Source: Burkholderiales bacterium
GTDB lineage: Bacteria; Pseudomonadota; Gammaproteobacteria; Burkholderiales; Ga0077523
Direction: 5' to 3'
Length of the DNA: 64,000 nucleotides
Assembly: GCA_019747905.1 (NCBI GenBank)
Contig: JAIEQG010000090.1
Location: 1 to 64,000 of the forward strand
Below are positions 8,287-48,060 of the stretch, in pieces. Numbering within the stretch: the stretch's first letter is position 1; every line of letters starts with the position of its first letter. The translations under genes were made by a program, and so were the position numbers. Under the pieces are notes generated by a model. It had not been told where the DNA came from. It worked only from the letters and a program-made list of their open reading frames with translations, and searched no databases.

Positions 8287-8673
8287 TCAGTTCGCGACGA
8301 GGAGCGTCGGACTCTTGGTGAGCGCGACGCCCAGGATGTAGAAGAAGACCACCTGCGCGCCGAACCAGGCCGCAAGGCGCCGGCCGCGGGTCCTGCCCCA
8401 GCGGAACGCTGTCATCCCGAGCAGGATGTAAGCGACGACGCCGCCGACCTTCGCAGCCAGGAAGCCGTGCAGGGCCGGATAAGCCGCCAGGTTCGCTGCA
8501 AGTCCGAGGGCACTCGCGAGCAGTACGGTGTCGATCACGTGCGGTGCGGTGCGCACCCAGCGCGCCTCGCTTGATGGCAGGGTGCCGAACCGCCAAAGAC
8601 CACGCAGCACGAAGAACGAGAAGCTCGCCAGCGCACAGCTCATGTGCACCTGCCGCAGCAGTTCATGACTCAC
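8287..8673 (-). CDS. SirB-like integral membrane protein
   Basis: MSHELLRQVHMSCALASFSFFVLRGLWRFG..., several TM helices. Confidence 0.65.
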   Translation of the reverse strand: MSHELLRQVHMSCALASFSFFVLRGLWRFGTLPSSEARWVRTAPHVIDTVLLASALGLAANLAAYPALHGFLAAKVGGVVAYILLGMTAFRWGRTRGRRLAAWFGAQVVFFYILGVALTKSPTLLVAN

Positions 8674-9149
8674 GGCGCGAACAAGCCCCCATGGACCCCG
8701 GCGGTCGCCCCAAGCACCGTCGCGAGGCTGGCGACAAGCAATACCCAGTGCAAGCGCCTGATCAGAGCGAACGTGCCGACGGCATCACGCCTCGCACGCA
8801 CCTCGAACCACCGGTGCAGCACCAGCGGTTCGAGGACGAACAGGAGCAACGTGAACAGCGCCCAGATCGCCACCATGGCGTGCATCCACCAGTAGTGGGC
8901 GTCGAGAAAACGCTGCCACAGGTTCCACTGCCAGACGAGCCAGAACCCCGATGCGCCGGCAGCCAGCGTCGTCCAGCGCGACTGCGCGGCAAAGCGGGCC
9001 TCGATGCGCTCGAAGAAAGTGACCCGTTCGGACTCGGCCACCTGTCGCACGGTCGCCGGCAGCAGCACCGTGGTGACCATCGCCACGCCACCGATCCACA
9101 GCACGATGGCGACCACATGCACCGCACGCGCCAGGGCGAATTCGTTCAT
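8670..9149 (-). CDS. CopD-like integral membrane protein
   Basis: MNEFALARAVHVVAIVLWIGGVAMVTTVLLPATVRQ..., conserved His/Trp TM positions. Confidence 0.6.
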   Translation of the reverse strand: MNEFALARAVHVVAIVLWIGGVAMVTTVLLPATVRQVAESERVTFFERIEARFAAQSRWTTLAAGASGFWLVWQWNLWQRFLDAHYWWMHAMVAIWALFTLLLFVLEPLVLHRWFEVRARRDAVGTFALIRRLHWVLLVASLATVLGATAGVHGGLFAP

Positions 9150-45420: not shown

Positions 45421-45520
45421 GCCCCCACCCTAGCCCTCCCCCGGCACAGCCGGGGGAGGGAATGCACTCCGCCGTACACCCCTTCCCCCAACTTCGTTGG
45501 GGGAAGGTTGGGATGGGGGC
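45421..45520. repeat. BIME-like palindromic repeat, locus 6
   Basis: gcccccaccctagccctcccccggcacagccgggggaggg...ccttcccccaacttcgttgggggaaggttgggatgggggc. Confidence 0.88.
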
Positions 45521-45714
45521 AGGCAGTTCGCCCCACCTCAAACAGCGTTCGCCGCCACCCCCCCTCTTCCCCAGCCCCAACCCCAGCTTCAACCGCAAGC
45601 AATCCGACAGGCAATACTCCCGCGGCCCTTCCTGCCTCGCGAAGGACACCCCATCCACCTTGCCAAACGATCGCTTGCCTGAGCCGGCAGACCTTTGCTC
45701 GAGCGCCGTCCGCA

Positions 45715-46566
45715 TCATCGTGCGGGTTGCTCACGGACGAGGGTGGCCGGGCTGACACCGAACATGCGACGAAACGTGCGGCTCAAGTGGGCGGAGTCGG
45801 CAAACCCGGCCTTGTGTGCAGCCTCGGTCCAGGATCGGCCTTCGGTCATGACTTCCAGCGCACGAAGAATGCGAAGCCAGAGCACCAGGCCGCGGAAAGT
45901 CGTGCCTGTCTCCTCGACCAGCACGTGCCGCAGGCGGCTGGGTGAGAGGTGGACCGCTGCGGCCACCTGCGACAAGCTAACTGCCGATCCGCGCTGGCTC
46001 GAGAGGAAGTCGATCGCGGCGCACACACGGGCGCTGACGCGGGTTCTGTCGGGCGAGGGCCCCGCGAGTGAGGCAACGACCTTGCGTCCAGCATCGACGT
46101 AGGCGTCGTCGGCGGCAGCGGCGTTCTGTCGAAGCTCTTTCAGGACCGTCGTACCGCCGGCGCAGTCCCTCGGCAGCGCGGTGATGGCCGCGGTGCCGAA
46201 TCGCTTCATGAGAGCCCTCCCGGGATCCGTCTCCGGCTCGACAAAGACATGGGCGATCCAGCCGCCGCGACCGTCGAACTCGTGGCTGTGGTGGGGCATC
46301 ACGATAGCGGCCTGAAACTCGGCCCAACGGGGGGCGCCGCGTTCTCTTAGTACAAAGCCTGCGTCCTGCTCCCCCAGGGCAACCGTGATCTGAATGGCGT
46401 GGTGGGCATGGGGTGCGGCATGCCCTGCGTTGCGGCCGTACCAGAGGCTGCCGCCTTGCCAGGTGCAGATCCGGCCGATGCCGGCGACGTTCAGCGTGGC
46501 AGTCCGCGGAAGCTGCGGCGCCGCGACCAACGCGTCCGGCTGCGCACCCTGCTTTACCGGCGGCAC
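45715..46566 (-). CDS. AraC family transcriptional regulator
   Basis: VSLSQVAAAVHLSPSRLRHVLVEETGTTFRGLVLWLRILRALEVMTEGRSWTEAAHKAGFADSAHLSRTFRRMFGVSP. Confidence 0.9.
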   Translation of the reverse strand: MPPVKQGAQPDALVAAPQLPRTATLNVAGIGRICTWQGGSLWYGRNAGHAAPHAHHAIQITVALGEQDAGFVLRERGAPRWAEFQAAIVMPHHSHEFDGRGGWIAHVFVEPETDPGRALMKRFGTAAITALPRDCAGGTTVLKELRQNAAAADDAYVDAGRKVVASLAGPSPDRTRVSARVCAAIDFLSSQRGSAVSLSQVAAAVHLSPSRLRHVLVEETGTTFRGLVLWLRILRALEVMTEGRSWTEAAHKAGFADSAHLSRTFRRMFGVSPATLVREQPAR

Positions 46567-46630
46567 GGCATGTCCTTCAAGTCAGCCCTTTCGTTCAATT
46601 CCTTACCGGAGGACGCCAACACAATGCGCC

Positions 46631-46660: not shown

Positions 46661-46682
46661 ACCAGTACGAAAGGAGATTGTG

Positions 46683-46856
46683 ATGGACCGTCGATTCCAA
46701 GATCAATGCCAGTGCGTCAACTGCCCGCAAGCGGGCTGTGATTGCGGTTGCCGGGCGACCGGCACGTTTGCGACACCAACAGCGCTTCCGCCCAGCTGCC
46801 AGTGCGCCGACCACTGCGGGTGTGACGCGGCTGAGCAGGGTTGCGTGTGCCGATGA
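46683..46856 (+). CDS. Metallothionein-like 57-aa cysteine-rich protein (12 Cys)
   Basis: Below the 60-aa track cutoff. MDRRFQDQCQCVNCPQAGCDCGCRATGTFATPTALPPSCQCADHCGCDAAEQGCVCR*; RBS aaggag 6-8 nt upstream of ATG. Confidence 0.75.
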   Translation: MDRRFQDQCQCVNCPQAGCDCGCRATGTFATPTALPPSCQCADHCGCDAAEQGCVCR

Positions 46857-47461
46857 ACAGTCCAGCCAGGCAACGTGCGATGCGCCCCCGGGACGACCGG
46901 CACCGGGTTCGATCATGGGTGTTTCCCTTCGTCGTGCTGGTAGCCCTGTCAGGATACTTGCGCGTCGCCCTGCCCTTTGCCGTCGATCCCGGCGGCATCG
47001 CAATCAACTACGTCGAGAACACCGGGAGTGTCGGATCTTCGGGTATGCCTACCGAGGACCAGTTCGACGAAATCGCCCGCGCCAGGTACGACGTGGTCGT
47101 GAACCTGGTACCGCCCGGATCGCTGGGTGCCCATCCGGACGAGCGCGAGCTCGTCGAAAGAAACAGAATGCGCTACGTCGGCATCCCTGTCAGCTACGCG
47201 GCGCCTCGCGCGGAGGATTTCGAGCAGTTCGTCCGCATTGTTCGAGAAAGCGCTGACGACCGTGTTCTGGTGCATTGTCAGCTTGGCTGGCGGGCATCGA
47301 CGTTCGTGTTCCTCTATCGCGTAGTGGAGCGGGGCGAGGATCCGGATGCGGCCTTCGAAGACGTGTTGCGCGTGTGGTCGCCAGCATCCCATTGGCGAGC
47401 GTTCATCCGGGACACCTTGCGCGAACGACACAAGGCCTTGCCTGCGCGGTTGGCAGCGTAG
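46853..47461 (+). CDS. DUF442/dual-specificity-phosphatase-like protein with N-terminal membrane segment
   Basis: GMPTEDQFDEIARARYDVVVNLVPP and active-site loop VLVHCQLGWRAS (CxxGxR); TM VRSWVFPFVVLVALSGYL; ATGA overlap with the Cys-rich ORF. Confidence 0.7.
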   Translation: MNSPARQRAMRPRDDRHRVRSWVFPFVVLVALSGYLRVALPFAVDPGGIAINYVENTGSVGSSGMPTEDQFDEIARARYDVVVNLVPPGSLGAHPDERELVERNRMRYVGIPVSYAAPRAEDFEQFVRIVRESADDRVLVHCQLGWRASTFVFLYRVVERGEDPDAAFEDVLRVWSPASHWRAFIRDTLRERHKALPARLAA

Positions 47462-47480
47462 CCTCGGAGGAAACATCGCG

Positions 47481-47570
47481 GCCCCCACCCCGACCCTCCC
47501 CTGGCAAGCCGGGGGAGGGAGCCGCATACCCCTTCCCCCGGCTACGCCGGGGGAAGGTTGGGATGGGGGC
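47481..47570. repeat. BIME-like palindromic repeat, locus 7
   Basis: gcccccaccccgaccctcccctggcaagccgggggaggg...ccttcccccggctacgccgggggaaggttgggatgggggc. Confidence 0.88.
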
Positions 47571-47589
47571 TGGCCCGAACGCCCCGAAC

Positions 47590-48060
47590 TCAGCTGTCCA
47601 CGCCCGCGACGCGCTTCCCCTCGCCGAACCGCACCTTCAACCGGCTCCGATCCGGCAGGCAGTACTCCCACACCGCATCCTGCCCAGCGAAGGACACCCC
47701 GCCCGGCTCGCCCAGGAGTTCCAGTACTTCCGCCGCCGAGGCCCCGCCGGCCTTCACTTGAGCGATGTCCTCCGGCCGGCGAATCGGCATGATCTCGCGC
47801 ACCTTCCCGTCACGTTCGTACACCACCCGCCAGGCACCCCAGGCGACGCGACGGTCGTTGAACTCCCAGACCTCTTCGCCCGAGCCGAGAAACCGCATGG
47901 CGTTCGGCAACCCGGTGCGGTTGCGCACCTCCTGCATCGTCCCGCCCTGGGGCGGCGTGCCGTAGATCGCGGCTTCGCCGGTCGGCCGTGCTGCACAACC
48001 GGCCAGGGCGGCCGCACCGATTGCCAGCGTGATCGCAAGTACATGGCGGATGGAGCGCAT
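47590..48060 (-). CDS. BamE/SmpA-like lipoprotein
   Basis: Lipobox LAGC; GGTMQEVRNRTGLPNAMRFLGSGEEVWEFN; second half repeats the pattern. Confidence 0.65.
   Translation of the reverse strand: MRSIRHVLAITLAIGAAALAGCAARPTGEAAIYGTPPQGGTMQEVRNRTGLPNAMRFLGSGEEVWEFNDRRVAWGAWRVVYERDGKVREIMPIRRPEDIAQVKAGGASAAEVLELLGEPGGVSFAGQDAVWEYCLPDRSRLKVRFGEGKRVAGVDS

Follow-up and report, generated by a model that had tools for sequence, protein, structure and literature searches.

A 12-cysteine metallothionein-like protein of Burkholderiales linked to an AraC-family regulator

Does a very short, cysteine-rich open reading frame that overlaps the start of a phosphatase-like gene encode a real protein and, if so, which of its neighbours is its partner? 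We investigated this question at one locus of a 64-kb stretch of Burkholderiales DNA (henceforth the window), for which a sequence-only reading had proposed a 57-aa metallothionein-like protein with a ribosome-binding site, two six-cysteine clusters and a stop codon overlapping the next start. All of these features were re-derived from the sequence exactly as claimed (see Table 1). The predicted protein, which we will refer to as MT, has the translation MDRRFQDQCQCVNCPQAGCDCGCRATGTFATPTALPPSCQCADHCGCDAAEQGCVCR and the cysteine layout CxCxxCx4CxCxC followed by CxCx3CxCx6CxC, with a cysteine-free linker in between; its stop shares the ATGA at 46853-46856 with the ATG of the downstream, DUF442-like gene. 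Like metallothioneins as a class, it is short, cysteine-rich (12 of 57 residues, i.e., about 20%), built on CxC and CxxC motifs and poor in aromatic residues (two Phe, no Trp or Tyr), and no signal peptide is evident in its sequence. Neither an Rfam match nor a consensus sigma-70 promoter or terminator was found at the MT locus.

Table 1. Features of the AraC-MT-DUF442 unit and its flanks (positions in the window).
Feature	Position	Strand	Evidence or remark
REP-like hairpin, upstream of the unit	45421..45524		second copy downstream, 47478-47575
Degenerate copy of the 3' end of a BamE-like gene	45566..45652		77% identity over 87 bp to 47614-47700
AraC-family regulator, divergent from MT; N-terminal cupin and HTH_18	45715..46566	-	domain matches, alignment
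Conserved box AGCCCTTTCGTTCAA (consensus AGCCSTTTCRTTCAA), putative AraC operator	46584..46598	+	alignment of 7 loci
ACAAT, conserved -10-like element, 22 bp 3' of the box	46621..46625	+	alignment
Ribosome-binding site AAAGGAG, 6 nt 5' of the MT ATG	46670..46676	+	sequence; GGAG-like site at the same position in other loci
12-Cys metallothionein-like protein (MT), 57 aa	46683..46856	+	sequence, homologues, invariant Cys columns
MT cluster 1 (residues 9-23)	46707-46751	+	
MT Cys-free linker	46752-46796	+	
MT cluster 2 (residues 39-56)	46797-46850	+	
DUF442/PTP-fold protein with membrane anchor, 202 aa; its start codon overlaps the stop of MT	46853..47461	+	sequence, model, PDB matches
CX4R loop of the DUF442-like protein (within HCQLGWRAS)	47276-47293	+	sequence

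Homologues of MT were found at 14 further Burkholderiales loci in a capped sample of genomes, in which a first filter scored part of the candidates, giving 15 loci in total. The closest is a 77% identical copy in a genus-mate (genome G005, locus L021, a Burkholderiales MAG), followed at about 46-56% identity by L022 (a Betaproteobacteria MAG), L023 (Aquabacterium terrae), L024 (a Burkholderiaceae MAG) and G238 (a genome from another family of the order). In the alignment of these five with the window's MT, all 12 cysteines are invariant while 38 of the 57 columns vary; the probability that all 12 would fall by chance among the 19 invariant columns is about 7e-8. When the alignment was extended to 13 members, 11 of the 12 cysteine columns remained invariant and the twelfth nearly so, and no invariant histidine column was present in either alignment. 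The reading frame is conserved as well: against L022, the homologue most divergent at the level of bases, the MT frame keeps 26 of 57 residues, compared with 11-17 in the other five frames. Conservation of the cysteine positions and of the frame in related genomes, on which the sequence-only reading had staked its proposal, is thus borne out.

Its other safeguard, a Ka/Ks that should not lie near 1, gave a divided answer: dN/dS is 0.89 in the closest pair (window and L021; 5.2 synonymous and 16.8 non-synonymous changes, i.e., a ratio resting on about five synonymous changes) but 0.07-0.52 in those deeper pairs for which it could be computed. The value in the closest pair implies weak constraint on MT outside its cysteines and, taken together with the invariant cysteines, the set of values fits a protein whose thiols matter and whose remaining sequence is loose. 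Such looseness outside the thiols is what is expected of metallothioneins. We conclude that the 57-aa, 12-Cys frame is a real gene and that its product is a genuine, conserved and unannotated metallothionein-like protein, whose cysteine pattern suggests that it binds metal as thiolate clusters.

The family is patchily distributed, being present in 2 of 12 genomes of the window's own genus and in few across the order; a profile search of 301 genomes of one family (f49) added further members. The C terminus reads CGCDAAEQGC(V/L)C in a major subgroup and CxCxxxCxC in another, whose members are shorter, and Cupriavidus sp. P-10 carries a 14-Cys variant. Weak matches at E-values of 0.03-1 were treated as noise, and a second weak match in Aquabacterium terrae (L070/L081) covers 23 residues, falls within a long reading frame and is probably due to chance. 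A scan of viral contigs for MT found nothing. A tblastn search of plasmids with the MTs returned no match, yet the Cupriavidus query missed its own plasmid, so the low-complexity filter was probably blinding the search and the lack of plasmid matches carries no weight. On a plasmid of Cupriavidus oxalaticus X32 (L096, 6001-6305), the promoter box described below precedes an MT frame that stops after the first half of cluster 2; no AraC gene was found beside it, and the frame is apparently a decaying remnant.

How does this family relate to known metallothioneins? Plant type-1 and other two-domain metallothioneins consist of two six-Cys, CxC-rich domains separated by a cysteine-free spacer. MT has the same general layout but a much shorter linker, different cysteine spacing and no sequence match in Pfam or the PDB, so the likeness is probably convergent. 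No member of the family matched Pfam (including Metallothio_Pro, PF02069), NCBIfam or the PDB, and no homologous structure was found in the latter. PF02069 likewise had no match in the window's whole genome, while the same search did match the control genome of Synechococcus elongatus. This result, the lack of a conserved histidine and the different cysteine layout agree with the sequence-only reading in placing MT outside the SmtA/BmtA family. The two kinds nevertheless have much in common, as both are small, cytosolic, cysteine-rich proteins that begin with CxCxxC and face a divergent regulator across an intergenic operator (a putative one in the case of MT); in the SmtA/SmtB system, the dedicated regulator is divergent and its operator lies within the shared intergenic region (PMC7387436). 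They differ in that MT carries 12 cysteines in two six-Cys halves, whereas the Pseudomonas type is Cys9His, and in that the neighbouring regulator is of the AraC type, whereas SmtB is a repressor of the ArsR/SmtB type. The mycobacterial MymT, another small, cysteine-rich metallothionein, is credited with a role in copper detoxification (PMC7387436). No Pfam or NCBIfam model matches the MTs reported here. We know of no AraC-type regulator for MymT, and we found no description of an AraC-controlled metallothionein in the open-access literature searched, which is weak evidence of novelty. MT belongs to an uncatalogued, all-cysteine, two-cluster family within a known kind of protein; none of the domain libraries tested picks this family up, and gene length cut-offs can readily hide it. 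Few families of bacterial metallothioneins are known, and very few of them have a known function or regulator.

The constant partner of MT is the AraC-family regulator rather than the phosphatase-like gene. An AraC orthologue adjoins MT in 12 of the 15 loci (window, L021-L024, G238, G919, G972, G967, G813, Cupriavidus P-10 and, as a partial match, G1040), mostly in divergent orientation, although in G967, G1040 and Cupriavidus P-10 it lies in tandem upstream of MT; no such neighbour was found at the MT loci of G981, G976 and G896. These orthologues are 41-86% identical, and within a 399-genome sample of the order those with E<1e-45 occur only in the three genomes of that sample that carry MT and in G268. 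The window's regulator has the C-terminal double helix-turn-helix domain typical of the family (HTH_18, 71.6 bits against a cut-off of 33.6; PDB entry 2k9s was also matched) and shares with AraC-family activators the same cupin plus two-helix-turn-helix build, differing in its link to a metallothionein. Its cupin residues H53, H55, Q59, H95 and E110 are invariant in all aligned members and would be compatible with a metal site. Since HxH/H residues are common in AraC cupins, and AraC regulators usually sense organic effectors, we hypothesise rather than conclude that this regulator may sense metal directly. In G238 (L069), the AraC gene has an in-frame TGA (near 8598-8691) at an N-terminal Trp that is conserved in the other members, reflecting a nonsense mutation, an alternative start or an assembly error.

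Regulator and MT are additionally linked by a shared promoter element. In seven aligned loci the box AGCCSTTTCRTTCAA and the element A(C/G)AAT downstream of it are always 22 bp apart, and the same spacing was found behind boxes that differ at no more than one position in G919, G967, G972, G813, G896 and a Polaromonas plasmid; the box of Cupriavidus P-10, likewise with no more than one mismatch, is followed by a poorer -10. The box is close to unique: its exact sequence occurs only at this locus in 6 of 7 whole genomes scanned (the window's included), the reversed box used as a control gave no match in 6 of 7 genomes even with one mismatch allowed, and within the 64-kb window there is a single match at up to two mismatches. 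G005 has a second exact box away from MT (C83:3260-3274). No -35 hexamer is recognisable upstream of MT, which would fit an activator-dependent promoter. We infer that the regulator binds AGCCSTTTCRTTCAA and activates the MT promoter. Since 12 of the 15 loci keep the regulator and have the promoter box in common, control of MT by the neighbouring AraC gene, which the sequence-only reading had raised as a possibility, is very likely as judged from genome comparison.

We then considered which other genes are found with this regulator and box. The window has no metal-transport gene next to its AraC-MT-DUF442 unit. By contrast, in Cupriavidus sp. P-10 the AraC gene, the box and the 14-Cys MT stand just upstream of genes for an outer-membrane factor, then an adaptor of the CzcB/CusB kind and a CusA/CzcA permease (759 bits to TIGR00914, which exceeds the curated cut-off), providing the genomic link to metal homeostasis that is expected of a metallothionein and that the window lacks. 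G972 has AraC divergent from MT-YtkA-MauG, while in G981 MT is divergent from YtkA-MauG. G268 (L068) has this regulator and box too, but opposite them, in place of MT, are DUF3703, YtkA-like and MauG-type genes. The Polaromonas plasmid carries the box in front of a gene for a DUF3703-YtkA fusion and one for a MauG-type peroxidase, and behind these comes an AraC homologue. On a Marinobacter plasmid, DUF3703 has a cation diffusion facilitator and SCO genes as neighbours; on one from Comamonas, it adjoins an RND efflux system. These metal-gene neighbours in relatives are the best genomic evidence that the AraC-MT unit handles metal. The module of DUF3703, YtkA-like protein and MauG-type di-haem peroxidase recurs in L068, L083, L085 and L090; it has the box in common with the metallothionein in L068, L083 and L090 and is metal-linked by context. 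We found no paper on DUF3703 in the open-access literature searched. Downstream of MT in L022/L067 lies a BrnT/BrnA toxin-antitoxin-like pair (L067, 7455-8001; judged by eye).

We propose, with a probability of roughly 70%, that MT serves in the cytosol as a metal sink built of thiolates only, and that its gene is switched on by an AraC activator of its own. Specifically, the regulator would respond to too much of a thiophilic metal (Zn, Cd or Cu) or to an effect of this excess, bind AGCCSTTTCRTTCAA and recruit polymerase to a promoter without a good -35; MT would then be made in the cytosol and sequester the metal in two metal-thiolate clusters, while downstream genes on the same transcript would add periplasmic functions. 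This cargo would vary by genome, being the DUF442-like gene in the window and YtkA-MauG or DUF3703-YtkA-MauG in relatives. A more specific version, in which the activator senses metal through its cupin histidine site and a single box is reused for MT, DUF3703, YtkA-MauG and DUF442-like cargo, is tentative. If this version is correct, the unit would be a positive, one-component metal switch with a logic opposite to that of the SmtB repressor. The family also ties the orphan genes DUF3703, YtkA-MauG and DUF442-like to a probable metal regulon, and the combination of a regulator with a short, near-unique box makes inducer and metal testable together by reporter.

What, then, is the role of the overlapping downstream gene? 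The N-terminal membrane segment and the HCQLGWRAS loop reported for it by the sequence-only reading are both visible in its sequence. The AlphaFold model (pLDDT 86.6) has a PTP fold preceded by a hydrophobic helix at residues 16-42, among PDB entries the protein is most similar, in sequence as well as in fold, to 3gxg/3gxh (whose annotation reads DUF442 putative phosphatase), and the best Pfam match is PTP-NADK (PF22741), with PF04273 well under its cut-off. The protein thus combines a PTP fold with an active-site Cys-Arg loop, in which H141, C142 and R147 are invariant in aligned homologues. This loop, in the window as in those homologues, is a six-residue HC-x4-R, and the HCx5R P-loop of protein tyrosine and dual-specificity phosphatases (e.g., VHR, one residue longer) is absent. 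The name phosphatase, which had been derived from the loop, therefore does not hold on that basis: CX4R is the loop of DUF442/3gxg, and its length is also that of rhodaneses. For the DUF442 domain of Blh, thiosulfate sulfurtransferase activity has been demonstrated (PMC5823870). The window's protein resembles Blh and 3gxg/3gxh in PTP fold and CX4R loop but is membrane-anchored and lacks the ETHE1 dioxygenase domain. Its N terminus is Arg-rich before the membrane helix and many homologues look secreted, which places the modelled catalytic domain probably in the periplasm; with MT in the cytosol, the two products would probably never meet.

The gene follows MT in only three genomes from two families (window, L021 and G238; 81% and 53% identical to the window's copy in L021 and G238, respectively). 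It was absent beside the other MT loci examined and, conversely, the 1.5-kb flanks of other DUF442-like homologues contained neither an MT-like cysteine-rich ORF nor an AraC orthologue. The ATGA overlap is present in the window and L021, but G238 has a gap of 40 bp, so translational coupling is not general. The proposed two-gene unit hence stands as a real pair in two families and fails as a description of the other MT loci; given this restriction, the DUF442-like gene is accessory cargo rather than core.

One could still argue that MT is a redox or sulfane-sulfur buffer, carrying persulfide on its 12 thiols, with the DUF442-like protein moving sulfur and the AraC regulator sensing oxidative or sulfur stress. 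The CX4R loop and the sulfurtransferase activity of Blh speak for this, as do the MauG-type di-haem peroxidases that neighbour the unit in some relatives. We nevertheless consider it unlikely, because the DUF442-like gene is missing from most MT loci and its product is probably in a different compartment, the AraC-MT pair of Cupriavidus is followed by a CusA/CzcA operon, and CxC-rich pairing is typical of metal-thiolate clusters. Only slightly less plausible is the idea that MT does not store metal in bulk but hands it, as a small chaperone or donor, to a partner, either the AraC sensor or an efflux pump. This would agree with the tight linkage of MT to the regulator and with the operons of relatives, in which genes for metal transport or for periplasmic metal functions occur; yet 12-14 cysteines in two clusters are far above the two that a chaperone needs, and there is no conserved non-Cys docking surface save the C-terminal AAEQGC of the major subgroup. 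Cooperation of MT with the downstream protein as a two-gene, metal-binding and phosphatase system is improbable: the pair is kept in three genomes and overlaps in two of them, but it is absent elsewhere and spaced apart in G238, its loop is not the canonical phosphatase loop, and the catalytic domain is placed on the far side of the membrane. A chance cysteine-rich frame in GC-rich DNA, to which the shortness of the ORF and the dN/dS of the closest pair might point, can be dismissed almost entirely, as frame, cysteine positions and ribosome-binding site are kept across several Burkholderiales families and conservation extends to a homologue with very different codon usage.

The AraC-MT-DUF442 unit is enclosed by the two copies left from an old duplication of part of a BamE-like gene, an arrangement that is possibly a trace of the unit's insertion. 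The unit is also flanked by REP-like, GC-rich elements, whose core GGGGGAAGGTTGGGATGGGGG has nine matches with up to three mismatches in the 64-kb window where none would be expected; one of these hairpins folds at z = -5.1.
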